Source of the DNA: Eutypa lata
Lineage: Eukaryota; Ascomycota; Sordariomycetes; Xylariales; Diatrypaceae
Assembly: GCA_022661535.1 (NCBI GenBank)
Contig: JAKULF010000009.1
Span: 2,170,001 to 2,234,000, forward strand
Direction of reading: 5' to 3'
DNA: 64,000 bases
Shown: positions 27,446 through 62,151 of the stretch, piece after piece
Layout: the number at the start of each line of letters is the position of its first letter
How positions within the stretch are numbered: the stretch's first letter is position 1
The notes under the pieces: generated by a model
Told to the model about the DNA's origin: nothing
Seen by the model: only the letters and a program-made list of their open reading frames with translations
Databases searched by the model: none
Made by a program: the position numbers and the translations under genes

Positions 27446-28420
27446 TTTGACAGAGTGGAATTTTAATAAAAATGGAAGAACACAAGAACAAAGAAGTCAA
27501 TCCGCTTTAATTATTATAAATTGGCGTTATGGAGACGAGGAATTATCCTGCACAAAGGAACTTTGAACATTTGAATATTCGATTAAGTTAAACTTGAGTT
27601 GAGGCTCTGCATTTTCAACATTGTAGCGACCTAACTACTAGTTAGCATTGGCCCCCGCTCTTGCCTTAGGTACCTAGGTAGATAGGCAACTTACAAGTAG
27701 CTCTTGCACTACAAGGGCTGCACCACACGCTAAGTTAGCTATTGTCGTCCGTCACTTATAGTGAGATATCTGGATATGCAACACAATGTCTACTAGTAAC
27801 ATGAAAGAAATAGTAGATTATTATTATAAAGCCTAACGAAGAGTCATAAAGTTAGTTAACTATAACTACCCCTTTCCATCCTTTTCTATAAGGCATGTTG
27901 TATATAATATCAGCATATAAAATAATAATAAAACTAAAGTTTACATTCAAGCTGGGTCGGAAGGATTAGGCATTATAGCGTTCATATATGCTATTCAGCC
28001 CATCACAACTGGTCTGGAGCAAGCATATTAGACCTAGAAATACAGTATCACCCGCAATCATGTGTAGGTGTAAGTTTACTTGCTAAAATGGCAAGTGGCT
28101 TCCGACCGAAGGTTTAAAGAGCTTTATTAACTAAAGTTTAGAAGGTATAATACCTTCTTTGTTATGATTAACCTATAAACACTACTTACAAAACTATTAG
28201 AAGTATCTAAAATGTGAAACAATGGTTATAAACCAACTAATGTAAGACATATATAATAATTAAGCTTACAAGGTAAATTATATAGCTATAACGTAATTTT
28301 ATATTTCATTAGTTACTTAATTGGTTGGGATACCTTTTTCTGCGGAAAAATTCCATAACCAGAAATTTTTTTTTTACATAAACTTATTTTTTGATTTTTT
28401 TTTTCTGTAACCATGCATTC

Positions 28421-29172
28421 GCATGCTTTTGCTTTTCAGTTCTTATTCTTGCCAATGCCTAAAAGGGAGGAAGCAATGAGGAAATCGACATAGATTCCTC
28501 GTAGATTAGTTACACTATTAACGTGTGATATCCCTTTCGGTTGCCTTGATCCGGCATTTATCTTTTAGAAGCCCAACGACGTAGCGAGATATCGCTGAAT
28601 GATTTCGTAATATGGCTCTTCAATATAGTCGATCTACAATGTAGAAATCCTGTTAGGTTCCACAACTTCCTCTTATCACAAGCGTGCTGTTGACACTATT
28701 AATACTTCGCCCACATGCATATTCAGTATTCAGACGTGCCAAAACACCATGCAGTGATGTATATAGCCGCTTTGCCGCCGCGTCAATGCCAATTTCTAGA
28801 TAGTAGCACATATACGTATTGCTTGATACAGCTATTACCATGCATTGTTCCATAAAGACGTTTAACAGCTGCTTTGTACGCTTTCTGCTAGTAGTAGTTA
28901 CCGCCGTTGCCTACTTGTTCATCTTTTCCCATTACCTTTGAAGTTACCTATTTATACTACAAGATGGTAGTAGCAAGGAGTTGACGGATGGTAACAGCTT
29001 AACCTGGTGGGTCATTGCGCAAGCAGTAATTTTCTGAAGTGTGTAGTACTCATTGGAGGACATACGGCCGCCGACACATGTACCTACAACGATGCAGGGG
29101 TGCTCCGATTGGCCTTAAGTGCTTCTCCCATCAAGCCAAAGACTCACCAAGCTTCCCCTATAAGGTTAAGTA
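28421..29172 (+). mobile_element. Repeat copy L (transposon relic), related to 62437-62815
   Basis: Two blocks (about 28421-28515 and 28988-29172) align with 62437-62535 and 62626-62815 in the same orientation. Examples: CTTTTGCTTTTCAGTTCTTA here against CTTTTGCTTTTTAGATTTTA there, and CAAGCCAAAGACTCACCAAG against TAAGCCAAAGATTCGTCAAG. Most differences are C/T or G/A transitions, and this copy is the GC-richer one. The first block could have encoded a peptide beginning MPKREEAMRK, interrupted by stops. The ~470 bp between the blocks here is absent or replaced in the other copy. The element class is not recognised. Confidence 0.6.
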
Positions 29173-30655
29173 CCTTCGACGGTTTATTCATCATCAACGG
29201 CACGATCCCCGCGTCCATCGCGGGTTTGTCCGAGTCCTTGTTATGTGGAACGGAGTTGTACTCGGGTAGGTATACGCTGATGATACTACGTTGGAAATCA
29301 TAAGCAGATGCGTTGATGCGTCATTATATGCGCCGGCAAGGGACCTGGGGGTGTACGTTAACTTGTTGAGGGTGTTTAGCATCGCAATCGTGGCGAGCAT
29401 GTCCAGTGAGACGGAGAAGTTCTCGACAGCGACATGTTCATGAAGCTGGCTAACGAATGCATAAAGAAGGTGATGGAACAAGTGCAGTGCTGATTGACTC
29501 GATGTTGGGGAAGCTAACTCTAGCACTAGAGCGCCGCCAAGACATTGATCATGGGCAATTCAGATGGTAATTGTATTCTCTAGAAGCTGGTAGTAGCAAC
29601 TTGTAATAAAGAAGTTTATAGTATAATTAATGTCTTAGACTCTTAGTTAACATAGAAGCTTGTAGTAATAGAAGTATATAATGCCTTAGACATCCATTAT
29701 ACCGTAAAACAACGTAGAAAGTTCTGGTATTATCGGAAAGATTCGAGGAAGGTCCGGAAATATAAAGAAAAAAAGAAATTTCTAGAAAAAAATGAAAAAA
29801 ATGAAAAATCAACTTGTTTTTCGTTATTGCGCGATTTTTTTGAAGTTGTTAAATTTTATTTGTTTTCATGGTTTTCTGGAATTTTCTACGGATTTTTTTG
29901 CCGTATCGAGCTTATGCTCGAATCTTCGCGCTAATTCCAGAACCTTCTACGCTATAATGGGTGCCTAGACCAGATGTCTTAGGCAACTTTAAACTATGTA
30001 CATATATACCTAGTTGCCTATTAAGTAATTATAAATTTCTAGATTTCACCAGCTTACTTTTTCTTTGTTCTTTAATCTATCATTGTATTTGCTTTGTATT
30101 AATGTCTACAACATACTCTATCTTCTAGTCCGTAGCATTTACCACAAGCTTTTACGTAGCATAGCTTTCTTTATGTAAGTCTCAGGTATTATAAAAATGC
30201 TATACAGTGCTATTTATGTACATGTATACATACATGTATGTATCTACACTTTATTTCCCCTTTTCCTTAATAGGTACTTAGTCAGATGGTAATAGCAATT
30301 TAATGTATTCCTTACACATAAATATTATAATGTTGTGTATACAATCCCTTGGAGAGTATGTCTAAGTATTATAGCCTTTAAGAAAATTCTTATACTAAGC
30401 TTAGTATCGTCAACATTCAAGGGTTATATTTTGGACTTAGGAAGCTTGGATCAGGAAATCCTTAGTTAATACACCAATACACCAAAACGCCCCAGGGCGG
30501 TTCCCACCTAGCAGATACCTTACAGTGGATTATGCAGGGCCCTAAACACCTTAGGCCAGTTGCAAAAACATTTTTGTTGTTAAAAATTTAACTATTTATT
30601 GTCTTGATTACATGCGCAGTTCATTGTCTTTCTGCAGACAAGCCACCTCTGCCAT

Positions 30656-33558: not shown

Positions 33559-34242
33559 ATCATACTATAGTTTGATTAAAACGTCTACAGCGCTTGCTAC
33601 TATGAAGACAGAACACACAGTGGTAACCAAAGTCCGTAGTCAACAACGAACTCGCCGAGGCGACCGACCTGACACTAGAGCTTGTATCTAAATGCTCAAC
33701 CAGCGTCCCCCTTACAGCCTAGCCTCTGCACATGGTATGAAGGTAGTAACAAGTCGGGACATAATCGTCAAGGAGGTCTAGGCAGCCTAGAGAGTGGATA
33801 TCGTAGCAGCTAGATGCGTAGCCGTTAAACCATGGAAACAGCTAGATAGGTCAGGTTCCAATAGCAATAAGCACCGGCATCTCCACCGCCTAAAATGTCT
33901 AACTGAATGTTTCATATTCTTCCATGCTTCTGGCACAGACCGAGCAGACCGCAGGCGGATGAGACCAGCAAGAGACAGCGGGCTTTGTTGTCAAAAAACT
34001 ACAACTACACCATAGTGTTAAATCGTATCTTGGTGTCCGACATTCTGTTTCTAATGCTGCCTAACCTCAGAGTACTTTCAATGTTTTAAATGAGACGGGT
34101 GTTGCAATTCGGACAAGATCGTTAATGCTACATTTCTGCCCTAGCTCACACACACTCACACACTTGCTCAACCACACACTTACACACCACACACTCACGT
34201 TCGACAAGATCATACTTCTATCCCCATCCTAAGCACGCTGCC

Positions 34243-35541
34243 ATGGGCATCTTCGATGATCCCCAGCGGGTGCTGGAAAAGACCGCGGCAAAGTTGAAGC
34301 TGCAGTACTCTCTCGCCCACCATCCGCTCGATTCCTCTACCAGGTTCCGCGTGGATTACCTGCGGGTGCTTATCCTGATGGAGCAAGAAGCCTTCCCGTT
34401 ACACCTACGCCAGAACAGGAAATGCTTTGACTTCCTCGCCGATCTCGCAGGCGAGAAGAAAGACGAGATGATGGACACGGTGAGATCTACATTCGGCATC
34501 GAACCCTCCGGCAAGAAGGTCGACATTTGGAAGGCAGCGCTTCAGGCCCTAGAGGATGGCGACGGCTTACCCGCGGCTGACGGGACAACGACAAGCTCGC
34601 ACGACCTGAACAAGAACGGGGTCCGACAACACGCTGCACCCGCTGGTCGTGTGGCGTCTCCGTCCCCGGCGTCGCGCCGGTCGGCTTCAATCTCGAGCGT
34701 ATCACCTGCTCAAGCAGCCCGGACTGGCCAGCCTCCCGGATCATTCGCCACTACTGCTACAAATGCACCGGTTCCAGGCCTCTACAACCCACACCGGGCA
34801 AGTGGATCTGCCGGCGCCCACCACTGGCCTCCTTCGCAGGGCTTCTACCCTGGCACTGACAAGACGGCCACGCACGGACCGAACCCTGGTCCCAAGCCCT
34901 GGCATCAACCTCCTCCGATCACGCGACCGGGACAAGCCCCTATCTTCAACGGTCTCGGATCGAGCATGCATGGGTTCGGCAACCCAACCGGCGGGCAGGA
35001 CCCCAAGCCGAAACCGAGCTCGGCGGGTGGTTTCCAGCCCGGAAACTCGGGACACCTCCTCCGAAGCTCCCACAAGGACCCACTCCAAGGGAAAGGCACT
35101 TGGACAAGGCAGCCCGCGGTGTCTGACCCGTACGAATTCGCGAGCAGCCAAGGCAGCTCAACGCCGACCGAGAAAGATGAAGTCAGACCTTTCACCACGA
35201 ACCAATTTCGCTCGTTCTTCAAACTGGACAGCCAGGAGTCCTCGGCCTCTGGCAACCAAGAGGGGCGGGGCCGGTTCGCGCGAGGAGGCAAGATCCTTAC
35301 GGACGAGGTGGCCGCAGAGATGGGCCGCTTGTTCGTCTTGACCCTGGCGAACCATCCCGAACACTTCCCAGAGATGGGTCAGACGAGCCCAGCATGGGCC
35401 GACCTTCAGAGCCAAGCCAGAGACACCGTCCAGCAGATCGAGGTCCTAAACGACCAAGAACAGGAGATCCACATCGAAGTCAAGAGATTGCAGACTGAGT
35501 TGGCGCGCCTCACCTTCGAGGCCCTGGACTACCACCACTGA
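34243..35541 (+). CDS. Accessory protein with N-terminal helical module and long disordered tail
   Basis: A single open frame of 432 residues starting at ATG in good context after a CA-rich leader. I do not recognise a named family. Residues 1-105 are predicted helical, with RVLEKTAAKLKLQYSLAHHP, YLRVLILMEQEAFPLHLRQN and CFDFLADLAGEKKDEMMDTV, then DIWKAALQALEDG. This segment resembles by eye the helical module of the genes at 37649, 42276, 48949 and 57703 (pattern L-x-L-x-E, F/W-x3-L-x-D, G-K, and a final A-x3-L helix). Residues 110-310 are Pro/Ser/Gly-rich and probably disordered. Residues 315-432 form a second ordered part (FTTNQFRSFFKLDSQE, ILTDEVAAEMGRLFVLTLAN) ending in a coiled coil (EVLNDQEQEIHIEVKRLQTE). 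First gene of the accessory cluster. Confidence 0.7.
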   Translation: MGIFDDPQRVLEKTAAKLKLQYSLAHHPLDSSTRFRVDYLRVLILMEQEAFPLHLRQNRKCFDFLADLAGEKKDEMMDTVRSTFGIEPSGKKVDIWKAALQALEDGDGLPAADGTTTSSHDLNKNGVRQHAAPAGRVASPSPASRRSASISSVSPAQAARTGQPPGSFATTATNAPVPGLYNPHRASGSAGAHHWPPSQGFYPGTDKTATHGPNPGPKPWHQPPPITRPGQAPIFNGLGSSMHGFGNPTGGQDPKPKPSSAGGFQPGNSGHLLRSSHKDPLQGKGTWTRQPAVSDPYEFASSQGSSTPTEKDEVRPFTTNQFRSFFKLDSQESSASGNQEGRGRFARGGKILTDEVAAEMGRLFVLTLANHPEHFPEMGQTSPAWADLQSQARDTVQQIEVLNDQEQEIHIEVKRLQTELARLTFEALDYHH

Positions 35542-39566: not shown

Positions 39567-39600
<34 letters not shown>

Positions 39601-40932: not shown

Positions 40933-41772
40933 TCAAGTTCCCCTGCCGCCTTGCTCGGGGAAGACCGACTCCTTGTACATGGCGATTTGGTGCTCCATCT
41001 CCTTGCTGAAATCGCGTACGCCCGACTCTAGAAAGGCCCGGAATGACTCGTGTTGCCGCTCAGCTACGGAAAGCGCGTTCCGGCGCAGATTTAGGTCCTG
41101 AGCGCGGCCGACGCGCTCTAGCTCCTCCCTCTGCTCTTCCAGGGCTCGGCGTTGTATTTCGAGCTGGCGTGCGGCTTCCTTCTCTTGGGCGTCGAGCCTC
41201 TTCTCCCGGTCGCTGAGCTCCTCATCCTTCTCCGCGACGCGCTGTTGGAATTGCTGCATGGCGGTCTCGAACTCCTGCTCGAAGGCGGCTCCCGATCTCT
41301 TACAGTCGGCTACTTCCACGCGAAGCGCTGCCACAACCCCCAGCGTCTGTTCCAGGGCTTGCTGACTCTCCCGGTACTTAGCTTCCCAGTTGAACTGCCC
41401 CCCCTGGACAGGCGGGTCGCGCCTGCTCTCGACGTTCTGGAGGCACTCGCGGTGGCTTTGGATCGATGCCGCCAGCTCCTGGAGCTCTGTGCGCTTGGAC
41501 TCTATGTCGGCGTCCAGGACCCCCGTGTCGTTGAGGCTCCGCGCCTCTGCGTACTTGCGCTCGCATCTCTGGAGACGGTGCACCATGGCTCTGGCCTCCG
41601 CCTCGGTGATCAAGTGCATCCCGCGCGCCTCAGTGTACTTCTCCGCCCAGCCGTCCAGGTCGCGGACCAACCCGGGGGACGTTTTGACGCCCTTCTTCTT
41701 CTTGCACGGGTCTGGCTGGCCGGCAGGAGCTGGTGGGGAGCCCTGGTACGCTCGCTTGTTTGCTTGGCGCAT
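40933..41772 (-). CDS. Coiled-coil accessory protein
   Basis: One exon, 279 residues, starting MRQANKRAYQGSP. A short basic N-terminus (CKKKKGVKTSP) could act as a nuclear signal. Most of the rest is heptad-like and rich in Glu, Gln, Arg and Ala: AEARAMVHRLQRCERKYAEA, ESKRTELQELAASIQSHREC, QQRVAEKDEELSDREKRLDA, ARQLEIQRRALEEQREELER. These indicate one or two long parallel coiled coils and probable oligomerisation. No enzymatic motif and no named family. It is transcribed divergently from the gene at 42276 across ~500 bp, so the two are probably co-regulated. Confidence 0.75.
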   Translation of the reverse strand: MRQANKRAYQGSPPAPAGQPDPCKKKKGVKTSPGLVRDLDGWAEKYTEARGMHLITEAEARAMVHRLQRCERKYAEARSLNDTGVLDADIESKRTELQELAASIQSHRECLQNVESRRDPPVQGGQFNWEAKYRESQQALEQTLGVVAALRVEVADCKRSGAAFEQEFETAMQQFQQRVAEKDEELSDREKRLDAQEKEAARQLEIQRRALEEQREELERVGRAQDLNLRRNALSVAERQHESFRAFLESGVRDFSKEMEHQIAMYKESVFPEQGGRGT

Positions 41773-42275
41773 GATGTCTGGCCGGGACGCGGTCGATACG
41801 TGTAGGGTAGCTGGGGAACGGTGACAGAGTATGGGGACAGAAAGCTGCTAACGCGAGTGTAGTTGGTGGATGAGCGATGAAGCAAAGGACGGAGGTCAGC
41901 GCCCCTGCGGTTCTTGAAAGCTCCTCGCGCTGTCTGGCATCCATATCGACCACCCCTAGGACGCGAATCGGTCGTTTGTCTGGAGGTGAGACACACAGGC
42001 GCTAAGGCCCTGCGGGACAGTCGTGCCTGAGAACAGGTGCATCGCGCGTCCCTGCTCGACCAATGGAAGGTCGGCGTGAACCCGTTTCAGAACGCGCTAG
42101 AAGATTCCGAGCCTGCTAAGACTTCCTACCAGACGCTGCTGCAGCCTGCTTTTCTAAGCGGCATTTGCGGGAGGTTGAACAAACAAGATCTTCACCACTA
42201 CTGCGTACTCTTCGTCCGACACCTCCCGCTCATCACCGTCCACCAAGCACCCCTACCACGTTCACCGCCGACAAG
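41773..42275. promoter_or_regulatory. Divergent promoter region
   Basis: About 500 bp between the starts of two head-to-head genes. Open frames run through it but without start codons in context. No clear TATA box was seen on either strand. Confidence 0.4.
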
Positions 42276-43871
42276 ATGGTACTAAGACCAGCACGAAACT
42301 TGAGCGCCTTTACGGCGTGGCCGAGCTGCAGACAGATCAGAGAACTAGCTGAGGAGCGGAAGATTTCGGACAAGGAAGACAACAAGGAGCTGCCCGAGAC
42401 CGCCCTGCTCGCCAGAGTCATGCTCTGGGAGATGGCTGTCCCCGTGGGCGAGTGGAAAGCGTTGCTCGTAGATGTCGAGCCGCTGGTGCCCCTGGGCATA
42501 ACGGCCCTCACGAGAACCTGCAGGGAGTTGGGGATAGGATACAACTCCCGCCACTGCATGGTCGAGAAGGCAATCAAGTATTTCGAGGAGAAGATCGAAG
42601 AGGGCCGTCGTCAAGACGAGCAGAAGTCCCTGATGTCTCCATCGTCCGAGGAGGCGACCAGGGAGGCCGAGCAGGCTGGCGGCTTGCCCGGAGGTGCCGA
42701 GGAGAATATGGATGCTGGTAAGGACTGTCGTGAGACCCGAGGCAGAACCACAGCTCACAGCGGCGGCCCAGATGACGATGCCGACTCGAGAGCATCTACG
42801 ACTACCACCGAGCTCCCCAAAAACGATGCCGAGCCAAGCCTTACGACCGCTCATGAAGAGCTAGAGGCAACCGACGAGAAGCCCGCGACGGCTATGACAG
42901 ACCATGTTGAGCCAGACCACGTGGTCGCCGAGAAACCTGAGACGACCAAGGCCGTGGCAGGTCATATCACCACCGACGAGAAGCCAAAGGCAGCCGAGTC
43001 CACAACAGATCACGTCGATCACCATCCGATTGCTGATATAGATGCAGAGGTGACCGAGACTGCGATGGGCCATGCTGGGGCAGACCGTATGCTCGTCGGC
43101 GAAAAGCCAGGAGCACCTGAGCCTATGACGGATCGTATTGAAGACGAAGATACGATGACCGATGCGAACCCAGCGGCAATCGAACCCATGACAGATCATG
43201 CGGCCGCCGCCGAGAGCACAGAGGTATCCGAACCCGCAGCTGATCTCGAACATGATCCGATCATCGAGGAAGATCCGGAGATGGCCGTGACCGTGGTAGA
43301 CCACGAGGGAGACCACATTCTCACCGATGAGACATCGGACGCGGCGGGGCCTATGGCGGGCTATGTCGAACACGCTTCGGCCGTCGATGAGGATCCGAAG
43401 ACGACCGAGTCTGTTGCAGGCTACACTGAGCATGACCTGCCCACGGATGAGAAGCTAGAGGTGGCTGAGCTCGACCACCTTGGGCTAGACCGTATGATCT
43501 TCGAAGATTCGCAGCTGATCGAACAACCTGCAGCATCTACAAGTTCGACACCGAGCAGCCCGGTGCCAGGTGCGGAGCCGGACCCGGCCAGGATGGAAGT
43601 GCAGGGAATGGTGCTGGACGACCCTGGCCAGTGCCCCTCAGAGCAGACGGATGCCGGTGGTTCGAGCCAAGACGAGTTCATGTTCGGCGGAGACCAGCCG
43701 GGCCCCGCCCCGCAGGCTTGCTCGACGCCGCCGCTCCAGGAAACCGAGGAAGCAGCGGAGGGCCCGTCGCCCGCGACGAAGAGGCGGGTGGCTTGGGCCG
43801 TGAGTGCCATCCTGCGAGGGTTGGCCAGCAGGGGCCCACCTAAGCCGCCTGCGGAGGGGGCGACAGACTAG
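42276..43871 (+). CDS. Accessory protein with helical module and degenerate ~20-residue acidic repeats
   Basis: One exon, 531 residues from ATG at 42276 (the frame extends upstream only through non-ATG codons). Residues ~20-115 resemble the helical module shared in this cluster: SCRQIRELAEERKISDKEDN, ALLARVMLWEMAVPVGEWKA, ALTRTCRELGIGYNSRH, MVEKAIKYFEEKIEEGRR. Residues about 198-395 are about ten degenerate repeats of ~20 residues following the pattern DEKP-x(3)-E-x-MTDHVE-x-D (for example EKPGAPEPMTDRIEDEDTM, ANPAAIEPMTDH, EDPKTTESVAGYTEHDLPTD). The C-terminus is acidic and Pro-rich, then basic and helical (ATKRRVAWAVSAILRGLAS). Probably largely disordered between the two ends. Not a named family. 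Confidence 0.72.
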   Translation: MVLRPARNLSAFTAWPSCRQIRELAEERKISDKEDNKELPETALLARVMLWEMAVPVGEWKALLVDVEPLVPLGITALTRTCRELGIGYNSRHCMVEKAIKYFEEKIEEGRRQDEQKSLMSPSSEEATREAEQAGGLPGGAEENMDAGKDCRETRGRTTAHSGGPDDDADSRASTTTTELPKNDAEPSLTTAHEELEATDEKPATAMTDHVEPDHVVAEKPETTKAVAGHITTDEKPKAAESTTDHVDHHPIADIDAEVTETAMGHAGADRMLVGEKPGAPEPMTDRIEDEDTMTDANPAAIEPMTDHAAAAESTEVSEPAADLEHDPIIEEDPEMAVTVVDHEGDHILTDETSDAAGPMAGYVEHASAVDEDPKTTESVAGYTEHDLPTDEKLEVAELDHLGLDRMIFEDSQLIEQPAASTSSTPSSPVPGAEPDPARMEVQGMVLDDPGQCPSEQTDAGGSSQDEFMFGGDQPGPAPQACSTPPLQETEEAAEGPSPATKRRVAWAVSAILRGLASRGPPKPPAEGATD

Positions 43872-48949: not shown

Positions 48950-48964
48950 TGTTGGGTAGGGTAA

Positions 48965-49217
48965 GTGTGTGTGTGTGTGTGTGTGTTGAGTAGGTGTGTG
49001 ACGGTGTGTTGAATAGAGTGTGTTGATGAGTGTATGTCGGTGTGTTGAGTTAAGTGCGTGTTGATCAGTGTATGCTGGTGTGTTAAGTAGAGTAAGTGTG
49101 TGATGGTGTATTGAGTAGAGTAAGTGTATGATGGTGTGCTGAGTAAAGTGTGTATTGGTATGTTGAGTAGAGTAAGTGTGTGATGGTATGTTGAGTAAAG
49201 TGTGTGTTGATGTGTTG
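48965..49217 (-). repeat. GT-rich minisatellite upstream of the gene at 48949
   Basis: A (GT)n run followed by about eight imperfect ~29-bp units of the type GTGTGTTGAGTAGAGTAAGT. On the coding strand this gives a CA-rich leader immediately before the start codon. The gene at 34243 also has a CA-rich leader. Confidence 0.8.
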
Positions 49218-51269: not shown

Positions 51270-53030
51270 TCAAGAATCTCTCTTCTTCTTGATCTTCTTC
51301 ACCTTCTTCTTCTTCCGCTGATCAAGGCCAGCATCTGAACCCTTTCTCTTCCCGCTAGAGGAACCGATGTAAGCTGGAGCAGGCCCGCTTGCTCGGCCCG
51401 CGTCTGAACTGTCGTCGCCTTTAAAGCCCCATCCCTCGCCCTCCTCGCCCTCCTCGCCTCCTTCAGAGTCCTCCCATTCGAGATCCTCGCCTCCCTCGAG
51501 GACCTCGCCCTCAAAGTAGTCACTCGCGTAGTCCTCGCTCTCGTCGTCTTCGTCTGTCATGGGTAAGGGGACGGCACTGGACTGCACGGCAAGCTGTACA
51601 CGTTGCATCAAGGTCGTAGGATGGCTGTCACAGCGGACTTCGAAGCGGATTGGGTTGGGGTTAGCGGGCTTGCTGCAGCCTACAATGGTGCACATCAATT
51701 CACCATTGGGAGAATAGGTGTTTCGACCAACCCATGCCACGAGTTTTGCCGTGATCGCCCCACATAGGGCGCAATTCCCCCCTACGACTACATTACACAG
51801 ATTGTCTTTTTTCCTTGAGAACCACAGCCCGCAGCTGCACGTGGATAGGTTCATGACTGCGTTGAAGGGGCACTGTATCAGGCCGTGTTTCCATTTTATA
51901 CCAGGGCATGGCCGACCGTCTCTGGGATGGACAAGGGCGTCCGGGAAACGGTCGAAACGCGTTTTGTTCAGCTCGAGATGGAGGTGGTGGTATAGCTGCT
52001 TCCACGCCTCCTCCCGCGTCGATGGCTGGACTTCGGGCTTGTGGTCCTGCTTTCGATTAGTCTTGGTCAGTTGTGTTAGGCACGACACCTGGCTTACCTC
52101 GAGTTTGGTTCGCAGCTTGCGTGAGAGATCGCAGCCGTACGTACGAACCGACTCGGACTTCTTGTCGCGATCCATGGTTGGGGATGCGAGGAGCCGAGCT
52201 ACGATAATTTCGAAGGCGTCTGGAGCACGCCACAGCAGGTTCTCCGGCACACGCTCACAGGCATGTATGTCTTCTCTCGGAAGGCTCGTAACTCGCGGCA
52301 CCCTCTTGGTACCCGAGACGGTCCACCCCATCGACGTCGCGAACTGTGTGTATGTCATGTTGTAGATGTTAGGCAACTTGTGGTCCATACCGAGGTGGAC
52401 CGGACCTATGTTCAAGCCACAGTTCTCCATGTGGAGCGTTAGCGCTACCTTCGTGCGGAACCACCCGCAGCCCTCCTTCTCGCATTTAAACCCCTGATGT
52501 CCGTCCGAGTAAGGGTTCTCGTCGCACGTAGGGTTGCATTCGTTCATATGGATCGCAAGGATGTGAGCCTGGAACCCATCCTCTCCGCATTTGGGGCATG
52601 TGAAATAGCCGTCCTCGTCGGGTTCAAACTTGTCGAATCCAATCACGTAGTGTGCGTTGCGCGGATCGCTGTTCTTAGGGCAAATCTTCCCGTGGCCCAG
52701 GCGCTGGCCCTTGTGAAGCGCTCTGGGGAAATAAAGACCGCACTTATGCTTGCAATACCATTTCTTGCCCGGGTGGTTCTTCGGTTTTGCCTCTTCTCCT
52801 GGGCACACCTCTGCTGCGTGCTTGGGGCGACGTTCTAGGCACCTGGGACATTTGCGGGTTCCACGGAAAGTCGCTAGGTTGTACCTGTCGATCCACTTCC
52901 GATCTTGTCGCTGCCGATAGATGCCGTAGCGGATTTGAAGGGCCTCGCCGTTCGGAGGTTCGGGCTCGGGGTCTTCGCCCTGCGGGCGCTCGGGAGTTAC
53001 GACCGGCTTTAGCTGAGCCGGCGACGACAT
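51270..53030 (-). CDS. Zinc-finger accessory protein (module A, no exonuclease domain)
   Basis: Open frame of 586 codons from ATG at 53030; a 51-nt in-frame segment (52097-52047, GTAAGC...GCAG with a branch site) looks like an intron, giving 569 residues. Residues 55-205 contain four Cys/His clusters: CPRCLERRPKHAAEVC, YCKHKCGLYFPRALHKGQRL, FTCPKCGEDGFQAHILAIHM, and FKCEKEGCGWFRTKVALTLH with a following Cys. After PNIYNMTYTQFATSMGW comes a second Cys module near residues 355-470 (CPGIKWKHGLIQCPFNAVMN, VGGNCALCGAI, MCTIVGCSKPANP, CDSH). The tail is acidic and then strongly basic (KKKKVKKIKKK), a probable nuclear signal. The product aligns along most of its length with residues 55-430 of the protein at 60163, but lacks that protein's C-terminal exonuclease-like domain. 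Divergent from the gene at 53496. Nucleic-acid binding is inferred. Confidence 0.8.
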   Translation of the reverse strand: MSSPAQLKPVVTPERPQGEDPEPEPPNGEALQIRYGIYRQRQDRKWIDRYNLATFRGTRKCPRCLERRPKHAAEVCPGEEAKPKNHPGKKWYCKHKCGLYFPRALHKGQRLGHGKICPKNSDPRNAHYVIGFDKFEPDEDGYFTCPKCGEDGFQAHILAIHMNECNPTCDENPYSDGHQGFKCEKEGCGWFRTKVALTLHMENCGLNIGPVHLGMDHKLPNIYNMTYTQFATSMGWTVSGTKRVPRVTSLPREDIHACERVPENLLWRAPDAFEIIVARLLASPTMDRDKKSESVRTYGCDLSRKLRTKLEVSQVSCLTQLTKTNRKQDHKPEVQPSTREEAWKQLYHHLHLELNKTRFDRFPDALVHPRDGRPCPGIKWKHGLIQCPFNAVMNLSTCSCGLWFSRKKDNLCNVVVGGNCALCGAITAKLVAWVGRNTYSPNGELMCTIVGCSKPANPNPIRFEVRCDSHPTTLMQRVQLAVQSSAVPLPMTDEDDESEDYASDYFEGEVLEGGEDLEWEDSEGGEEGEEGEGWGFKGDDSSDAGRASGPAPAYIGSSSGKRKGSDAGLDQRKKKKVKKIKKKRDS

Positions 53031-53495
53031 GTTTGGAGTTTGGTATGATGAGCAGGGTTGGGGAGATGGATGTGCATCCCTAAGTCGACCATTTGAGGTT
53101 GGAGCTGGGGGTTAAATAGGGAGTCCCTTTTGTCTGACCGTGCTGGAAGCTCAGGGAGGCATTGGATGAGAGACGATACAAGGGCGTCTAGGCTTTTCCT
53201 TGCCTTCCCAAGGCTGGAAAAGGGCGCATAGATTGAACAAGGCGCACCTCAGGCAGGTAGTCACAAAGGGCAGCTAGTGATGAACGAGGCCTCTCATATC
53301 TCTCAGACTTGCCTTTCACGAAGCCGAACCAAAGGCTGCGCAAAGCGCGCCTAGGGAGAAGGGGCAAGGGGTGAGGCAGCTTGTTGCCCCCCTATATATT
53401 GCCCAGCGCAGAACCATATCTGCCGCACGATCTGTGCACCATCTAACCCCATCATACCCTAAACTCCTCAATACAGCTCCTAGCATTATCCGACG
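53031..53495. promoter_or_regulatory. Divergent promoter between the first A/B gene pair
   Basis: 465 bp between start codons. TATATATT at 53393-53400 is about 100 bp upstream of the plus-strand ATG. A TATTTAA on the minus strand near 53112-53118 is about 80 bp upstream of the minus-strand ATG. Shared regulation of the pair is likely. Confidence 0.45.
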
Positions 53496-55677
53496 ATGGG
53501 TGCTGACAAGTGGGCGGTAAGCAACGTGTTAACCTCTGGGTCGGAGCGCTCGTATGACTAACAGCTGGCAGTGTAGCGTATGCGGGCCGGAGGGCAAGAC
53601 AACACGGTGTCGGCTTTACACCTTCCGACGGGCTCAGAACGAGCATCTCATATCCCTAGAAGATCTCAGCGTAGACATCTCGACACCCTTCACCATGTTC
53701 GACAGCGACGGCTTGCCTCACCTGATCACTATTGACCCTGCTGATGGCGTCTTGCGACATCACAAGACCTTCGATTGGGTATCGAGGAGGTTTGGCGACA
53801 CTCACCATTCGTGGGCGGAGTACGACCTGGCTAAGGGGCTCCGCTGCCGGTTAGAGGAGAACATACACCTCGTCGCCCGTATACTGAGCGATTTCCACTA
53901 CCCCGCAGTCCCCGAATCAGACCAAGAAGCAGGAGAACTCATCGAGGACTTCAGCGCTTTTCAGGTATTCTCCCTCGATGGGCAGAAGAAGACGTACACT
54001 GTGCCTAGGTGGGCCTCCGCGAAGCTAGTCGGCTTCCGCCAGTCACAGAAATACCCATCTCTCAGGGAGCGCATGCGTGAAAGCTTGCAGAGATTACTGA
54101 CCTCGATCTTCGGCGACCCTCGAGAAGTCTTCCCCAAAACACACGAGTTTACCCCAGAAGAGAGCGATGCTTTGGCCCACCTGTACGGGGCAAACCACCG
54201 TGGCGCCAGCCGGCGCCACCCCTCCTTTGGTGCGTTCCTGTGCAGCCTCGGTAAGCTACACCGCCAAGATCCCCAATTCGCCGGTACGACAGATGGTGCG
54301 GTCATCGAGTTCTTCGTCCCCCTCATATCTCAAAAGTCGACGGCCGTGTCTACCACCTTGAAGTCTCTAGACTTGTTGAACAGCACCCAGCAGCGGCGCG
54401 AGGAAGTGCTGCGCAGACCCTTTGCCGCCATCTTGTCTGACCTCCAGGGAGAGGAAGATCCCCCCTTTATCCCAGCGCAGCTTCTCCTCGCCCATCTGTA
54501 CTGTCTCGTCATCCACAAGCGAGTTATCTTCAGTGGTCGCCAGGCGGCCAGGACCGCCGCGGCCGACGACGCAACCAATGGGCAGGGGTCCGCGGCAGAC
54601 CAAGCCGCGGCTAGCGACGAGCGGGCTGGCCAAGGTGCTGCTGACGATCCTGACCCTGACGATTCGGCGGTGCCGGCCGTTGATGCCGCGCCGCGACTGG
54701 AAACCGACGAAGCCTTCCTTGAATCCTGGACCGCGGGCCTCAGTGCTCCGGACGCGTTCGAGAACTGGAAAGAGAAAGTCGCCGCTCCTCGTCGTGGATC
54801 AGCCAAAACACGGAAGCCAGCCGATCCTGCCCGGCCCCTGATAGACTCACACCCACGAGCGAGGATGAGGGAGCGCATATTTGCGCCAGCGCTGCAGAAT
54901 CTGCTCCACCGGCACCGGCGATCAGGACAGGTGCCCCTGCAACATCCAGGGTGGCTCCAAGTACAGCAAGCTCTGTCGGGCGCTCACCCTTCCGGTCCGA
55001 TTCTCTTCTGTGATGTTGAATCCGAGCCTTTTAGGGATGAAGAAGGACGGTACAAGCATTTGCTTTACGAGATTTGCGTCCAGCAATGGTGCGGCACGAG
55101 AGGCACCGCCGTCCAAGGAGGCGGGCCGGCGATAACGAGGAAGACGCCCGACCCCACGCGCAATGATGTCTGCGGCCGGCTAGGCCTCGAGGTCAATCCC
55201 TCGACTGCCATACGCACGAGCGCGCTTTTGACAACAATAGATCACGACAAATCTCTTGATGAGCTGGCAGAGATGCATGTTCGGCGCTTGCAAAAGCCGA
55301 CGTGGAAGCTGAACCGCATGTACGGGTGGCCTACCGACGGCAGGACGCGCGGAACAAAACCAGGAGATATGAGGCAGACACTCCTGAACCTCAAAGTCGG
55401 ATCGGCACCATTCATCGCATACAGTATTTACAGCAAGCATGATGCAACAGTGATCAACCAGTTACCTGGTTGTAAAACGCTAATCACGGAATCGCTTTCA
55501 CCGTTCCAGCTGCTCTTAGCGCTCGGCTGGACAGAGCCGCTTTCGTTGGCTGGCCTGTTCTGGGCCCTCTTCTCGGAAGAGGAACGAGGATCCATCAACA
55601 AACTCTTCCACAGAGCGGAAGCCGATACGGACGCACTCGCGCTCGTAACGTTCGAGTTGCTCAGCTACTTCGAGTAA
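53496..55677 (+). CDS. Module B protein fused to a DEDDh exonuclease-like domain
   Basis: Model: exon 1 53496-53516 (MGADKWA), intron 53517-53571 (55 nt, CTAAC branch), exon 2 53572-55677; 708 residues. A start at 53554 is possible, but that ATG lies inside a good intron. The protein opens with CSVCGPEGKTTRCRLYTFR (Cys 8, 11, 20), the same motif and intron position as the protein at 58636-59853. Residues 30-330 are a helical region of unknown fold, followed by an Ala/Asp-rich linker. The C-terminal ~225 residues look like a DnaQ/RNase T-type DEDDh 3'-5' exonuclease: ILFCDVESEP (Asp 488, Glu 490), AYSIYSKHDATVI (Asp 631) and FHRAEADTDAL (His 687, Asp 692). This domain aligns with the C-terminus of the protein at 60163. 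Activity and substrate are not known; divergent from the zinc-finger gene at 53030. Confidence 0.8.
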
Positions 55678-57376
55678 TCTGTGTCCTCGAAGGCCCGGCT
55701 GACGACCGCGCCCGCTCTCGCCTCGAGCACACGACCATGATTAGTCATTTTATCAAACTTTGCTCGGGAGCTGGACTTTTGCTAGGATTCGCGGCAGCGC
55801 CCTTAGGCAAGCCTATTCGCGTAGTGGGAAATGCTGATAGCAAGCTTACCCGTTTAGGCTTTACTTGAGGCAGAGGAAGGGGTGTACGAACTAGTTAATC
55901 AAGCCATCTCTTTTCTACCTACATCCTCAATTAGTTTCTTTCTTCCTCTATTTCTATATTGCCTCTCAAGACTGATTCGTTCCCGCCTGACACATCCTCC
56001 AAGACCTTAACGGAGGGGAAGGGGTGGCAGGGCAGTAGTGTTTGCGTGTAGTTCGTACCAACGATATTAACCAATTTGCTTTGCAAGGCTACTAGTATGT
56101 CTAGTATGTATCGAAAACCTAATCGTCTCATCCAAGAGAAAATATTTGCGCGGTGATTTTGCACCATACCTCCCACCGCCCGGACAGTTGCCACCACCTA
56201 GCTGTCACTGCGGCCTGGTTGCTGCAGCCAACTTAAAGTGCGAATGGCTTCAAATATGGGTAGTAGCTACGTGTACAGGCAGGTGAGTGTGTGGATAGGT
56301 AGGGAGGTGGCTGTAGCACCAACTGCTAGCTCTAGCTCATGGTTCACAATAAGTTCAGGGATAGGGGGTCATTCAGGACTCGTAGCGCAATATGCATACT
56401 AAATCTGCCTTATAGTATTCCCGCAATGCACCCACCATAAGGAAGGACATGTTAGTGATGTTCTATTAAACAATACATAAAAGCGATGAGATGATAAGCC
56501 AATTGAGATGAGCTGTAGGTACATATCTAGTGACTTGTATAGGGGTGCCTCTTGTGCATGGTGGGTGGGAATTGACAGGTAGACAGGTGCTGGGCAGCTG
56601 CATACTTACGACTGCAGGGGTCGTTCATTGCGCAAATAGTATTCTCTAATGATTAACAACGAATAGCGAAATGGCGTCGGCCTACAAGAATCTACGCAAA
56701 ACAATTTTCCGCGGTACTACCAAGTGCTCAAGTTACCTAAAAAGGTAAGTAATTCTTGTTGTGCATGAATAACAGGGCTGGACCACTTTGGATATCAGTG
56801 TAACCGTTGACCAATGTTCAAGTTAAACTGACACCATTTCCGTTCGTCGGATAGCTTTCTGACGCATAGTTATCCGGATGTAATGCATGTCATCACTGAC
56901 GGTACTGTCATACCCCCTGCGAACGGGCGAACCAACCCAACCTAGTTAGGTCTAAGCCGGTTTGTTAAATCCAAATCGTATTCATAGAATATGCGAGGAG
57001 AGTCAAAGGCGACATCTATTGATATCGGAATATCACGAGTTCTGGTGGAAACACCTCTAGACACTACGGGGATGACATTCTTCAACTGGGCGCCTTGGGA
57101 GTCTACCGATATTACGTGACCACATCACGAAGCAGCAAGTGACCAACTAGTTGCGGACTCTTGAGGTTATGCGGCGGCGTGGCTGCACATCCCCCTCAGG
57201 TGTTGTGCTGGCGCCTACGCATCGGTTTCACCGCCTTCACATGCATGGACGTCATGACGATGGACAGACCGCGCGCAGCTGCATATACTTATGTCTGCAG
57301 GCCTCCTCTCCATGCCCGGTCTTTACCCCAAGCTTTGCAAACGCCAGGCACATTGCTACGCTCTCCTCCTAGTCCC
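55678..57376. other. Intergenic DNA
   Basis: About 1.7 kb with no supported gene. A sequence at about 56618-56650 (TTCATTGCGCAAATAGTATT) weakly resembles part of the repeat found at 29005 and 62655, perhaps a third remnant. Confidence 0.45.
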
Positions 57377-57577
57377 ATGTTTCCACCCTTCTCTCAGCGG
57401 CATTTGGAGCAGGCACATGCGGCTTTCGACAGGAGGTGGGTTCTAACGATGATGAAGAAGGAGGTTCCGGCCTGGGAAGCAAGCGATGCGCAGTCCTTTG
57501 AACAAGCCATGATTCGCACGGCGTCGAACATACCTACTAGGCCGGCATCGACAAACGGGACTGTCAGTTTTAAGTAG
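57377..57577 (+). CDS. Small open reading frame, unknown
   Basis: 66 residues from ATG to TAG, with protein-like composition: RHLEQAHAAFDRRWVLTMMK, EVPAWEASDAQSFEQAMIRT. Too short to assign. It ends 125 bp before the gene at 57703 and could be a separate small gene, a remnant, or an upstream exon of that gene. Confidence 0.35.
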   Translation: MFPPFSQRHLEQAHAAFDRRWVLTMMKKEVPAWEASDAQSFEQAMIRTASNIPTRPASTNGTVSFK

Positions 57578-57702
57578 GCTTCAAATTCTAGAGCTACCTT
57601 TCCCGGAACACTTCGTATAGCATTTCCCCTTGGCAACAAGCACATCCGTCGTCTTCCACCATCACAGCTTCCATCATCAACATATCATCACCAACTACCA
57701 CC

Positions 57703-58192
57703 ATGAGATCTACTACGGCCACTGCATCTTCTGAAATCGCCATCACGGAGGGCTTGGACATCCCTCTAATCTCCGACCCTCCCCGCTCTGCGATCCATCT
57801 CGTCCAGACTCGGGTTTTGGCCTTGGACTCTTGGCTGCGCCTAGCCCATTTCCCGGAGGACGTCGTCAGCCAGCTGTCTGACGCGGCCAAGCAGGCCATT
57901 GCCGTGTTCCTGGGATACGGCGTCGACTGGCGTCAGCACGAGGATACATTCCATGACATCTTCTACCTATGTCAAGGCCGATACGAGAAGATCGTCGCGG
58001 ATGACATGACCGGCTTGGGAAGGGATAAGGGGAAGTGGGAATACGTGGAGGCTGTCATGAATGTACGTACGACGGGTCGATACCTACATGCTTACAATCC
58101 GTTTGCGCTTGCTAATTCTTGCGGCACAGCAAAAGTTCCCGGCCGCCCCCGACACGACAAATGGCGAATCTCCCCGCCTCGGCGAGCCCTGA
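57703..58192 (+). CDS. Short accessory protein with the shared helical module
   Basis: Model: exon 1 57703-58062, intron 58063-58129 (67 nt), exon 2 58130-58192; 140 residues. The ATG follows a CA/CT-rich leader. Exon 1 resembles the helical module of the gene at 37649: AAKQAIAVFLGYGVDWRQHE, DTFHDIFYLCQGRYEKIVAD, KWEYVEAVMN, against the HEDFFKCLFDC and VIAAILR blocks of that protein. The intron falls immediately after the final helix, as in the genes at 37649 and 48949, and the next residues are similar (QKFPAAPD against KFLGTDE). The frame then stops at 58190. Coding-like sequence continues in another frame, so this gene may be truncated by a frameshift or have an unresolved exon. Function unknown. 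Confidence 0.55.
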
Positions 58193-58466
58193 TAGCAACC
58201 TCAACGACGGGGCGAGGGCGGCAACTGATCGCTCCTTCGGACGGACGTACTTGGACGCGGAGGAAGGGTGGCGCTGGGATAATGCTGGGGTCTTGTGGAT
58301 AGAAGGTCACGCCGTTCAGTGCACGGAAGTGTCGGGATGGGTGTCACATCTTACGTCGTGGGCTAGCCAGTACTGCCGCGGGTCTATTGGGGTTCGTGCC
58401 AGGCATGTGTATCGTCTACGAGAATCTACTTGGATCTATGTAATCTTCATTCGTTCAATGTCTTGA
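58193..58466 (+). pseudogene. Out-of-frame continuation of the gene at 57703, or separate small gene
   Basis: In a different frame from the preceding exon, coding-like sequence runs to TGA at 58464-58466: SNLNDGARAATDRSFGRTYL, DAEEGWRWDNAGVLWIEGHA. An ATG at 58161 (MANLPASAS) could start it independently. No donor/acceptor pair with the right phase joins it to the exon ending at 58062, except one skipping to about 58263. Confidence 0.35.
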
Positions 58467-58635
58467 GACTTGTACTAATATCATTCGACTATCCTCCACA
58501 CTACCAACTTGGACTTGTCGCAGGTCCTTTGTTCCGAGTCCTTGATTAGATGCCACACCTTATACATGATTTATGCTGACGATGAGCATGGTCTTGTCCA
58601 GGGATGATGCGATGCTGCCTTGGCGATGTCGTCGT

Positions 58636-59853
58636 TCACTGCTGCGATTGCTGGAAGCGCTGGCTTATCTCTTGGATACGGCCGCGGATGACCGCATCCT
58701 GGACGATCCTCCTGCGGAAGCCAACGAGCGAGACGTCTAAAAATGTGTCACAGTACGACCGCCATACCCTGTGGAAGTATCCCGCGAGGCTCAGGCCTTC
58801 ACGAGCAGCAGCCGACTGATTCGTACGGGATAAGAAGAGCCTCCTCATCCACTGCTGCCGCGAGGCGCGGCTGAAATGGGAGCTGCGGCGGCCCGACCAC
58901 TGCAGTTCCTTGAAGGCGTCGCTGATAGATGGGTAGTTCCCTGACGATACAATGCTGAGGAGGAAGTCGGGGAAGTTGGGTCCACATATGTTTGGTCGCA
59001 ATGGGGCGTCGTATATTCTTGGCACCACGCGTTCTTGGATCTCGAGGAGGTGCTTCTCAAGGGACAGGCTGACGTCGTGGTGGGCTCCGTAGGTTCGAAC
59101 GACATCCTCGATCGTCTCTCTGTCCGATTCGGTGATCTGAAATCCCCTCCCCCCTAGCCTTACGTTAGCCGCCTACAGGTTAGCCACTACTCGCGGCTAC
59201 CTACCGAACACCGTACAGAATCCTCCCATCACCTGCCGAATCGCGTTCGTGCGCCACGCGCCCACACGCTCCCCCGGAGCAGCGCCGAGGCCGAAGTCGA
59301 GCTCGTGCCAGAAACCGGCTGAGTCTCGTAGCCTCAGCACTTTGCTATCCTCACCCGCGCCGCCAAAGCCTGCGACGTATCGGAAATTATCACCGAGGAG
59401 ATGGAAATTGTCGGCCCATCGGAATTGTAGTCGGTGCCCGCCTTCTGGGATAGCCACCTGGTTCTGGGCTTTCGGTCGCGGGCCCATAAGACGCAGCAGG
59501 AACTTGGCTCGCCAGGTCTGCAGGAACTTGTCTCCTTTGAGCGGCGCCTCCAGAGACTGGATGGTATGCTCCACACCGCGGGTGTCGCGCAGGGTCAGCC
59601 GCAGCGAATCGACGCGCCCGCACCGGGGTTGGAGCTCTTCGTTGTCTTCCCAGCGAAACGTCGTGAGGCAGACGGTATGGTCTCGGCCGGCGGTGCCGCA
59701 CGTCTGGCACTAGAGGGGGATCAGCTGCTGTAGCCCCCTGCTATGCTGAGCACCTACCTGGACTAGCACGGGAGAGACAAGCTTGCCGCCGTCGCCCCTG
59801 AGCAGTCCCCGCGGGGCGGCGTCGCGTGCGAGCGCGGTGTCGGAGCTGGCCAT
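58636..59853 (-). CDS. Module B protein without exonuclease domain
   Basis: Model: exon 1 59853-59758, intron 59757-59710 (48 nt), exon 2 59709-59205, intron 59204-59154 (51 nt, GCTAAC branch), exon 3 59153-58636; 372 residues. An in-frame ATG 9 bp upstream is an alternative start. Right after intron 1 comes CQTCGTAGRDHTVCLTTFR (Cys 33, 36, 46), matching the opening of the protein at 53496 (CxxCG, Cys, then TFR), with the intron at the same place. Later similarity is weaker but collinear: VDSLRLTLRDTRGVEHTI against VDISTPFTMFDSDGLPHLI, and FPDFLLSIVSSG against IEFFVPLISQKS. The C-terminal region is basic and Arg-rich. It lacks the exonuclease-like domain of its relative; in this pair that domain sits on the divergent neighbour at 60163. 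Function unknown. Confidence 0.72.
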
Positions 59854-60162
59854 GGGGCGCATGAATACCAAGATTGCATTCGAATGAGTAGTATGCGTGG
59901 TATGAGTAGTATGAGTGCTGTCGAGTTGTTGCACTTCACTCTGAAGAGATTCCCCTCCTGCTCCAGGCCGCAGGTAAAACCACGTCTCATCCTCGACTGA
60001 GCTGGAACCACTTGGAAGCCGGAGAGAAACTCTGGGAACTCCCCGGATGAGACATATTCACGACCTCCCCGACGTCGCTGGAAGCTCTGCGCCTGTCACA
60101 CTCCCTCCCCTGAGCCTCTCCCCAACTAAGATCACCAACCGTCCTATCTTTTCTGCGCTGGT
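59854..60162. promoter_or_regulatory. Divergent promoter between the second A/B gene pair
   Basis: About 310 bp between start codons. It includes GTATGAGTA-type short repeats (59885-59918) in the minus-strand leader. No clear TATA box was found. Confidence 0.4.
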
Positions 60163-62151
60163 ATGCTCATCGACAACGCCCTCGCACCCCCGTCACCGCG
60201 AATCATCATGGCATCGGCGCCCGACAACCTTGTATCCCACCTTCCCTTTGGTACCCACTTCCACACCATCCATTCAATCCCGGTGGTGTCTAGTCACAGG
60301 ATTGCTGTCTACAACTCCGAAGGAATCCGTCGCTGTTACAAGTGCCTCTGTCTAGTCCTGAGGGCCGTGTCGCATCAGAGGACGTGCCAAGGACCCCGGA
60401 AGGACAAGCTCTGCCGGTTTTCCTGCCTGGTAGGATGCGGTCGAGCATTCTCCACGGCCGCATACGCGGGCTCCCACTCGTCGGCGTGCGATGGGGTGCG
60501 CATCCCGACGGACAGGTATGGCACGTACAAGTGCCCGAAGTGCGAGGTCGCCGGTTTCGCCGAGAAGGCTATTCGGAAGCACATCGCGAAATGCAGCGGG
60601 CAGAAGGCCGATACGCTCAAGTCGTACAGAGGAGACAGCCCGGTACGCATATGCCAGGATTGTGGAAGCAGCTTTTTGGATACTGGTCTGCACAAGCACA
60701 CCTGCCACGTCTTCGGCGATCCGGTCTGGCTGGGCCGCCAAGATGAGCCCCCCAACCTCGCCATGACCTACGTTCGCTGGTGCCGCCAACACGATCTTAC
60801 CCTAGGCGGGGTGCCCGGCAGGATGCCCGAGGTGATTCCCGACGAGACTGTCTCGGAGGCGTGCTACGTGTCGCCACACGGACACCAATCTACCCTCGAC
60901 AGCAGCACAAACGACGACACGGACGATGACTCGGCCGACTCGGAGTGCGATAGCGACTTGGGGAGCGACAGCAGCGAAAGGGAGGAGCTTGAGGGGCATG
61001 GGGAAGACGGCAAGGACGGTGATGAGTGTGATGTGAGTGGCGGTGGTGAGGGTGATGGCGAAGAAGGCAAGAGCTATGATCAAGCTCTCCTAGAAGCCCA
61101 CCAGATGCGCATGAGGTTGAAGCTGCGGGGTGCAGAGGTCACATTTGACAAATTCGATGATACAGTCTGCGACGGGATCACGTGGAGGCATGGGTACTTC
61201 CCGTGCCCGTATGACACGCTCTTGACAGCAGAGACAGCTTACTTCCGGCTCTCTATCTGGTACAAAGGGAAACCACAAGTTCAGATCATGCCGTACTGCT
61301 TTAGGTGCGCGTACCTCAGGAGGAGGATCAGCCGCTGGGTGAGGGAATCCAAGTACACTGTCGGAGGAGTTCACCTTTGCCGGAAAACGGGCTGTCGCGC
61401 ACCGGTAGCGGCGATCTGGCACTGCAGGTATCACGCCGACCAGACAGCGCGGCGGGGCATCAGGAACCAGCGCCGCTTGGGCACTCCCAAAGTCGCCCCG
61501 CCTAGGGTCATCGCCGAGCTTACCTGCCGCAACCCTGCTATGAAGAAGCTGGTCTGCCCGCGTTGGACGATGGTGAGACGAGCCGTCCACGGAGACGCCA
61601 CCGCCTCCCTGCCGCCGGTTTTCTTCGTGGACACGGAATCCGTATATGATACCCATAGCGGTGGCTTCCTAGTCTGCGAGATTGCGGTCCGCTCCGCGGC
61701 GAACCGAGTGCTGTTGTGTACGCTCGTCGATCACGGCTTGACCTACTCGGATCTTCGGTCGCGCGTCAAGCCCAATATGTATGCCAAACTTCTTGGGTTG
61801 TACGGCTTCGACGATCGTACAAGCTGCACGCATGGTATGACGCCGGACCGGGTTGCGGCGAGGCTGGTGGAAATCGGGATGTCGTCCTCGGCTTTGATGG
61901 TAGAGTGGTCCCTCAACGGGTTCGACCTGAGGGCCATGCGCCACACTTTTGACGCCGCCGTTCTCCCCTCGACGGCTCTGCTTGGCCACCGGCTATGGAG
62001 GGATATAGGCCTTCCGGGGAGTGTCGCGCTACTACCGCTATTCGCGTCGGCATTCAAGAACTCGCTCCTGAACCGAACTCACCACCGAGCTGACGTCGAC
62101 ACTGAGAAGCTTTTCCTCATGGTCGAGAAGTCGTTGAAGTGCTTCTCCTAG
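60163..62151 (+). CDS. Zinc-finger (module A) protein fused to a DEDDh exonuclease-like domain
   Basis: One exon, 662 residues; an ATG at 60208 (MASAPDNL) has better context and may be the true start. Zinc clusters: RRCYKCLCLVLRAVSHQRTC, CRFSCLVGCGRAFSTAAYAG with a following His and Cys, YKCPKCEVAGFAEKAIRKHI, ICQDCGSSFLDTGLHKHTC. PPNLAMTYVRWCRQHDLTLG corresponds to PNIYNMTYTQFATSMGW of the protein at 51270. An acidic linker (240-305) leads to a second Cys module (CDGITWRHGYFPCPYDTLLT, YCFRCAY, LCRKTGCRAP, CRYH) that also aligns with that protein. Residues ~485-662 resemble a DEDDh 3'-5' exonuclease: VFFVDTES (Asp 490, Glu 492), EWSLNGFDLRAM (Asp 588) and HHRADVDTEKL (His 641, Asp 646). This region aligns with the C-terminus of the protein at 53496. 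The domain order suggests nucleic-acid recognition plus trimming; activity is inferred. Confidence 0.82.
   Translation: MLIDNALAPPSPRIIMASAPDNLVSHLPFGTHFHTIHSIPVVSSHRIAVYNSEGIRRCYKCLCLVLRAVSHQRTCQGPRKDKLCRFSCLVGCGRAFSTAAYAGSHSSACDGVRIPTDRYGTYKCPKCEVAGFAEKAIRKHIAKCSGQKADTLKSYRGDSPVRICQDCGSSFLDTGLHKHTCHVFGDPVWLGRQDEPPNLAMTYVRWCRQHDLTLGGVPGRMPEVIPDETVSEACYVSPHGHQSTLDSSTNDDTDDDSADSECDSDLGSDSSEREELEGHGEDGKDGDECDVSGGGEGDGEEGKSYDQALLEAHQMRMRLKLRGAEVTFDKFDDTVCDGITWRHGYFPCPYDTLLTAETAYFRLSIWYKGKPQVQIMPYCFRCAYLRRRISRWVRESKYTVGGVHLCRKTGCRAPVAAIWHCRYHADQTARRGIRNQRRLGTPKVAPPRVIAELTCRNPAMKKLVCPRWTMVRRAVHGDATASLPPVFFVDTESVYDTHSGGFLVCEIAVRSAANRVLLCTLVDHGLTYSDLRSRVKPNMYAKLLGLYGFDDRTSCTHGMTPDRVAARLVEIGMSSSALMVEWSLNGFDLRAMRHTFDAAVLPSTALLGHRLWRDIGLPGSVALLPLFASAFKNSLLNRTHHRADVDTEKLFLMVEKSLKCFS

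Follow-up and report, generated by a model that had tools for sequence, protein, structure and literature searches.

Why should two neighbouring gene pairs be built from the same modules, with an exonuclease domain attached to a different partner in each, and what kind of DNA are they part of? The question is raised by a 64,000-nucleotide stretch of the Eutypa lata genome (contig JAKULF010000009.1, here C9, positions 2,170,001 to 2,234,000; "the window" below), which comes from a 54.5-Mb assembly of 29 contigs. An earlier note on this DNA described, at 51270..62151, two divergent pairs of a zinc-finger gene (A) and a gene for a CxxCG protein (B), and named a selfish element as one possible setting. 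The analysis below places both pairs in a much larger unit of 35,519 bp with inverted repeats at its ends, likely a giant mobile element whose type has not been described before. That the four proteins are the element's own nucleic-acid-binding and end-trimming machinery is our preferred reading, and we consider the chances even that it is right.

Open reading frames (ORFs) and gene models confirmed the two head-to-head pairs. In the first, A1 (51270..53030, minus strand) encodes a zinc-finger protein without an exonuclease domain, 569 aa long after removal of a 51-nt intron (52047-52097), across which the reading frame is open as well; B1 (53496..55677, plus strand) encodes a 708-aa CxxCG protein with a C-terminal DEDDh domain and is interrupted by a single 55-nt intron (53517-53571). 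In the second, B2 (58636..59853, minus strand) encodes a 372-aa CxxCG protein without the exonuclease domain in three exons (59853-59758, 59709-59205 and 59153-58636; splice sites were chosen manually from the sequence), and A2 (60208..62151, plus strand) a 647-aa zinc-finger protein that carries the DEDDh domain at its C-terminus. The end of A2 is as noted earlier, but its start is more likely at 60208 than at 60163, judging by the relatives that reach the N-terminus, which align from 60208.

Homology of A to A, B to B and exonuclease to exonuclease had been proposed from alignments made by eye, with pairwise comparison of hidden Markov models as the check. That comparison gave significant similarity for A and for the exonuclease, and weak similarity for B. 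The A1 family was aligned with the N-terminal part of A2 with an HHalign probability of 99.1 (E 9.5e-19, 346 columns), and the exonuclease of B1 with that of A2 with a probability of 96.8 (E 3e-10, 142 columns), while nine control comparisons between unlike modules all gave E values of 0.04 or worse. A1 was also retrieved directly by an A2 query in a genome search (E 2.2e-6). Judged by these profiles, homology is firm in both cases, and the possibility of two unrelated gene pairs was rejected for A and the exonuclease. For B1 and B2, HHalign returned a probability of 23 (E 9e-4, 50 columns in the N-terminal part), and their Smith-Waterman score of 62 was reached by none of 500 shuffles (mean 34.4, sd 5.2). 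P0014, a relative of B1 whose predicted protein begins downstream of the CxxCG segment, has no similarity to B2 (score reached by 109 of 500 shuffles). A phase-0 intron lies immediately 5' of the first CxxCG cysteine in B1 and B2 alike, and this common position adds weight to what is otherwise a weak, N-terminal and suggestive similarity. The B-to-B homology is weaker than the earlier note stated. The finding that one exonuclease domain sits on opposite partners, on B1 in the first pair and on A2 in the second, stands.

The exonuclease domains occupy 54997..55674 in B1 (plus strand; D at 55012, E at 55018, H-x4-D near the C-terminus) and 61603..62148 in A2 (plus strand), the latter recognised by invariant residues and predicted fold. 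Residues D475, E477, D573, H626 and D631 of A2 do not vary in the family alignment, which has 12 rows including that of the window; D487, E489, D630, H686 and D691 of B1 (numbered along window:53554-55677) are shared with P0013 and P0014, in three of three rows. By sequence, both proteins carry the residue set of the DEDDh superfamily (DxE, D, H-x4-D), the model of the A2 C-terminal domain has a DnaQ-like fold, and 3'-5' exonuclease activity is predicted for both domains. The top-ranked Foldseek neighbours of the A2 model include the RNA-trimming enzymes REXO2, RNase AS and ISG20L2. The catalytic residue set and the fold of the A2 domain are those of DEDDh exonucleases such as RNase AS, REXO2, RNase T, DnaQ and ISG20L2; unlike in these enzymes, the domain in A2 and B1 is joined to zinc-finger or B parts without a known family. 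Sequence profiles of the A2 and B1 families matched no solved DEDDh enzyme in the PDB (E 0.15 or worse and 0.5 or worse, respectively). Pfam gave no match above cut-off for A1, B1, B2 or A2, and NCBIfam none for A1, B1, A2 and two further ORFs; among the 12 members of the A2 family, two match DUF7128 (best E 6.2e-4) and one matches DUF6671 (E 0.085). A scan of viral contigs for A2 gave 75 pattern matches, none of which was confirmed, and the single match of the A2 model to viral structures at E <= 0.001 was a phage DNA polymerase.

The unit in which the genes lie begins at 29831, fills the window to 64000 and continues to position 1349 of the sequence past the window end (L017; L017:1349 is equivalent to window position 65349). 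The genes of the originally described frame are thus in place, but its extent was too small. The unit starts with a 139-base terminal inverted repeat, type Y (29831..29969, plus strand), whose partner lies at L017:1211-1349 on the minus strand; a genome search matched these two places only, at 100% and 99% identity. The right repeat ends 1 bp before an intron-bearing tRNA-Arg(CCT) gene (complement, L017:1351-1452), which was found by ARAGORN with introns allowed, was missed without introns and had itself as the sole match in the genome search. We also considered whether the left junction carries a duplicate of the tRNA 3' end and dropped the idea, since none was seen there. ARAGORN with introns also made a second tRNA-Arg(CCT)-like call at 12590-12726, overlapping a long ORF.

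Flush against the left Y repeat lies a relic (28406..29830, plus strand; 770 bp and 657 bp) that ends in a different repeat, type X (29694-29830). It is not mutated by repeat-induced point mutation (RIP), and its two parts match another contig, at C8:2229319-2228486 and C8:2226215-2225567, with 5 transversions in 764 positions and 2 in 649. The relic is the right end of an X-type unit and lies in tandem with the C9 unit.

A second copy of the unit was found on C8. A1, B1, B2 and A2 each match at least one further place in the genome, on C8, where their order is kept but reversed and the frames contain many TAA stops; the last B1 match in this search was on C14 (E 0.285). The C8 block has a GC content of about 10%, and an ordinary blastn comparison of the C9 and C8 regions gave, among the matches listed, only AT-rich noise. 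When both were rewritten in purine/pyrimidine letters, they were near-identical across long runs. Between C9 and C8, 6180 of 7565 C (81.7%) are changed to T and 6203 of 7504 G (82.7%) to A, while the reverse changes are rare (T to C, 27/6725; A to G, 32/6707), and transversions affect 183 of 28,501 aligned positions (0.64%); these sums come from eight alignment blocks overlapping by about 100 bp. The aligner was lenient toward RIP-type changes, but the exact purine/pyrimidine matches are independent of that scoring. In the block at 51263-55900, C before A was changed most often (285/295) and C before G least often (208/362). We name these changes RIP on the basis of their one-way pattern and of general knowledge of fungi. 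Purine/pyrimidine matching can thus bring out a heavily RIP-mutated copy that ordinary DNA comparison loses in noise.

The C8 unit (C8:2225567-2275723) is collinear with the C9 unit and sits at a site with unrelated flanks. Its ends are X inverted repeats, other in sequence than Y and still matching at 92% and 79% after RIP; X and Y are nonetheless homologous, with a score of 151.5 where 300 shuffles averaged 99.5 (sd 6.7) and reached at most 126.5. The extra length of the C8 unit comes from a 7.2-kb insert that is present twice (C8:2264084-2271331 and C8:2246095-2253349); without both inserts the unit measures about 35.7 kb against 35.5 kb on C9. The inserts carry direct repeats of about 215 bp at their ends, resembling long-terminal-repeat retrotransposons nested in the unit, and one is slightly less AT-rich than the other (GC 0.167 versus 0.097), perhaps being younger. 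When 124 kb of C9 was compared with 110 kb of C8, the listed matches stayed inside the unit edges with two exceptions, the relic at 28406-29830 and, near 64657, a short subrepeat with a match in the left flank on C8. A short repeat unit was seen both beside the C8 left end (C8:2224972-2225566) and within the C9 right end (L017:622-720).

Inverted-repeat edges, an unlinked sister, a tandem relic and RIP are all explained if the unit is a mobile element, and we conclude that it is likely a giant inverted-repeat element. The selfish-element option of the earlier note gains direct support from the inverted-repeat ends, from the second copy at unrelated flanks and from the RIP of that copy. A non-mobile segment duplicated or introgressed between chromosomes, with inverted repeats flanking it by chance, would account for the finding of only two copies and one relic and for the absence of a clear target-site duplication (the C8 flanks have at most TA in common and the C9 flanks nothing). 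It would also fit the distribution of transversions, which climb, as in a recombined segment, from 0.3-0.4% at the centre (34.3-55.9 kb) through 1-2% at 32.5-34.3 and 56-64.4 kb to 4.6-11% closer to the repeats. Yet both copies end in homologous inverted repeats of differing sequence, and the relic shows another tandem insertion at the tRNA end; we consider a non-mobile segment very unlikely. By these figures the two units are sisters that are more alike at the centre, and not simple parent and copy. Across 28406-65349 they become less alike from the middle outwards in either direction, the pattern that would follow if two related elements that differ in their termini had exchanged their centre. 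An AT-rich patch in the C9 unit (62450-62650) resembles, by eye, a RIP-mutated form of the relic sequence at 28406-28970, which is free of RIP, and C8 sequence matches both; the C9 unit may therefore have been touched by RIP at this patch.

Selection on the genes was assessed from transversions between the two units, with transitions set aside and 8 bases beside gaps masked. In A2 and B2 together, 23 of 58 transversions are synonymous where 19.2% would be expected (P 0.00025; 23 of 60 unmasked). This synonymous excess indicates that A2-B2 were probably under constraint while both units diverged. In A1 and B1, the count is 1 of 11 against 17.6% expected (1 of 12 unmasked), with no sign of purifying selection and, at 11 transversions, little power.

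Protein-database searches with A2, B1 and A1 as queries revealed relatives in other fungi. A2 has 12 among 5576 candidates, one being this species' own; five are named, from Xylaria flabelliformis (53% identity), X. intraflava (48%), Annulohypoxylon maeteangense (51%), Daldinia sp. EC12 (51%) and Colletotrichum costaricense (39%), and the nearest are Xylariales. A1 has two relatives among 2645 candidates (97% and 68% identity), and B1 at least two among 7990 (99% and 70% among the matches listed). Residues 1-366 of P0002 from X. flabelliformis align with the strand opposite B2 in the window at 55.8 bits (46.2 with composition correction), compared with at most 30.8 bits for 30 shuffled queries, and all three window frames on that strand contain stops in the matching region. 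The antisense match and the stops point to a B2-like gene that the annotator misread in antisense, so that B2 and A2 most likely stand head-to-head in X. flabelliformis also. Conservation of the divergent arrangement, expected from the earlier description, is thus supported for B2-A2 in Xylaria but not for A1-B1, for which the searches gave (for B1, among the matches listed) near-identical proteins and one relative each at 68% and 70%.

These data bear on the possibility that A2-B2 is an ordinary host-conserved pair of Sordariomycetes, serving RNA processing for example, that became a passenger and was duplicated into A1-B1. The A2 relatives from four named genera, with identities of 39-53%, and the B2-A2 order in Xylaria fit such a history, and purifying selection on A2 and B2 fits a host gene equally well. 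Against it, the family was found in this genome only in the two units, the counts being lower bounds, so that no host copy remains, and the A1 and B1 searches gave no named host species (for B1, among the matches listed). We regard a host passenger as quite improbable.

We favour the machinery reading as a best guess because A2-B2 are constrained and conserved among the parts tested, and nothing else stood out as a candidate. On this reading the unit would move; zinc fingers of the A proteins would bind the element ends or element RNA, with the B proteins as partners of A. The placement of the exonuclease on either partner suggests a site of action at the contact between A and B, and the DEDDh domain, on B in one pair and on A in the other, might trim 3' ends of element nucleic acid at that point. 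Strand transfer would be carried out by B or by a domain so far unrecognised. A wider proposal, which we put forward only tentatively and regard as doubtful in full, is that of a new superfamily of inverted-repeat elements, about 35.5 kb long and found in Sordariomycetes, that would insert in tandem at the 3' end of a tRNA and move by proteins unlike known transposases: two A/B pairs sharing one DEDDh exonuclease, which would trim the element ends for integration.

The main rival to the machinery reading is that the module is anti-silencing cargo of an element moved by some other protein. Small RNAs or transcripts from the element's host would be captured by the zinc-finger protein and broken down by the DEDDh domain, which would protect the element from RNA silencing. 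The RNA-trimming enzymes among the top Foldseek neighbours of the A2 domain speak for it, as does the attack of the host on the element, at least through RIP; we rate it as unlikely.

Several further points weigh against the element's own machinery, besides the small number of units, the lack of a clear target-site duplication and the A1-B1 substitution counts given above. No movement was seen; neither the A nor the B proteins gave an identifiable strand-transfer domain; and we know of no DEDDh exonuclease that is a transposase. The right-most 0.8 kb cannot be aligned between the units, and the structure prediction for B1 was unusable (mean predicted local distance difference test score, pLDDT, 30.6). 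Outside this genome, the surroundings of A2 are known only through its B2 neighbour in Xylaria, so that A2-B2 could be host genes. The Pfam scan covered 24 ORFs or proteins of the unit and gave no match above cut-off; a listing for 28001-66500 has 168 ORFs of at least 70 aa, many of which overlap. None of the 24 was recognised as a transposase, recombinase, polymerase or capsid protein, and intron-split genes could escape such a scan.

How does the unit compare with known large elements? Like the Starships of Pezizomycotina, it is a giant gene-rich unit of a filamentous ascomycete at varying sites. To our knowledge, long inverted repeats such as those of the 35.5-kb unit differ from Starship features. 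Starships are defined, in an excerpt of PMC12506042, by a DUF3435 tyrosine-recombinase captain, the first gene at the 5' edge. Among the 24 scanned products there is neither DUF3435 nor any Starship accessory gene (NLR, patatin-like, ferric reductase, DUF3723). A genome-wide search found no DUF3435 either, but says little because 14 control genomes were silent too. Mutator-like elements (MULEs) have long terminal inverted repeats (139 bp at 99% in the unit), zinc-finger proteins and gene capture in common with it; unlike in MULEs, neither copy has an 8-11 bp target duplication, even allowing for RIP of the C8 left flank, and no DDE transposase was recognised in the scan. Non-autonomous MULEs lack a DDE transposase. 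Some ascomycete MULEs carry a second, antisense ORF (PMC6446971, excerpt). Polintons/Mavericks resemble the unit as large many-gene DNA elements with inverted-repeat ends (PMC6431247, excerpt), but no PolB, integrase or other viral-type gene was recognised among the scanned ORFs. The same excerpt describes Terminons, giant rotifer retroelements with an accessory DEDD-type 3' exonuclease (DEDDy). Terminons are retroelements with reverse transcriptase located at telomeres, whereas the C9 unit has DEDDh domains, inverted repeats and no reverse transcriptase recognised in the scanned ORFs. No description of this architecture was found in the literature covered, with preprints and most subscription papers outside the search scope.

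The best-known giant fungal elements are defined by one recombinase family, and a 35.5-kb unit without a recognised recombinase would indicate a further route for moving large gene blocks. The tRNA-adjacent site, the RIP-erased sister and the conserved zinc-finger/exonuclease pair bear on such a route, and the four defined proteins are places to seek new mobility chemistry or an anti-silencing device.

The first 4.2 kb of the unit contain no ORF longer than 182 aa, and none of the several long ORFs at 34126-49237 has a Pfam match above cut-off. Orphan ORFs at 40933..41847 (minus strand, 304 aa) and 42120..43871 (plus strand, 583 aa) match no Pfam family, nor does a possible small fifth gene between the two pairs (57592..58302, plus strand). 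A further orphan ORF of 471 aa (34126..35541, plus strand) has a partial match elsewhere, which the genome search placed in the C8 copy only.

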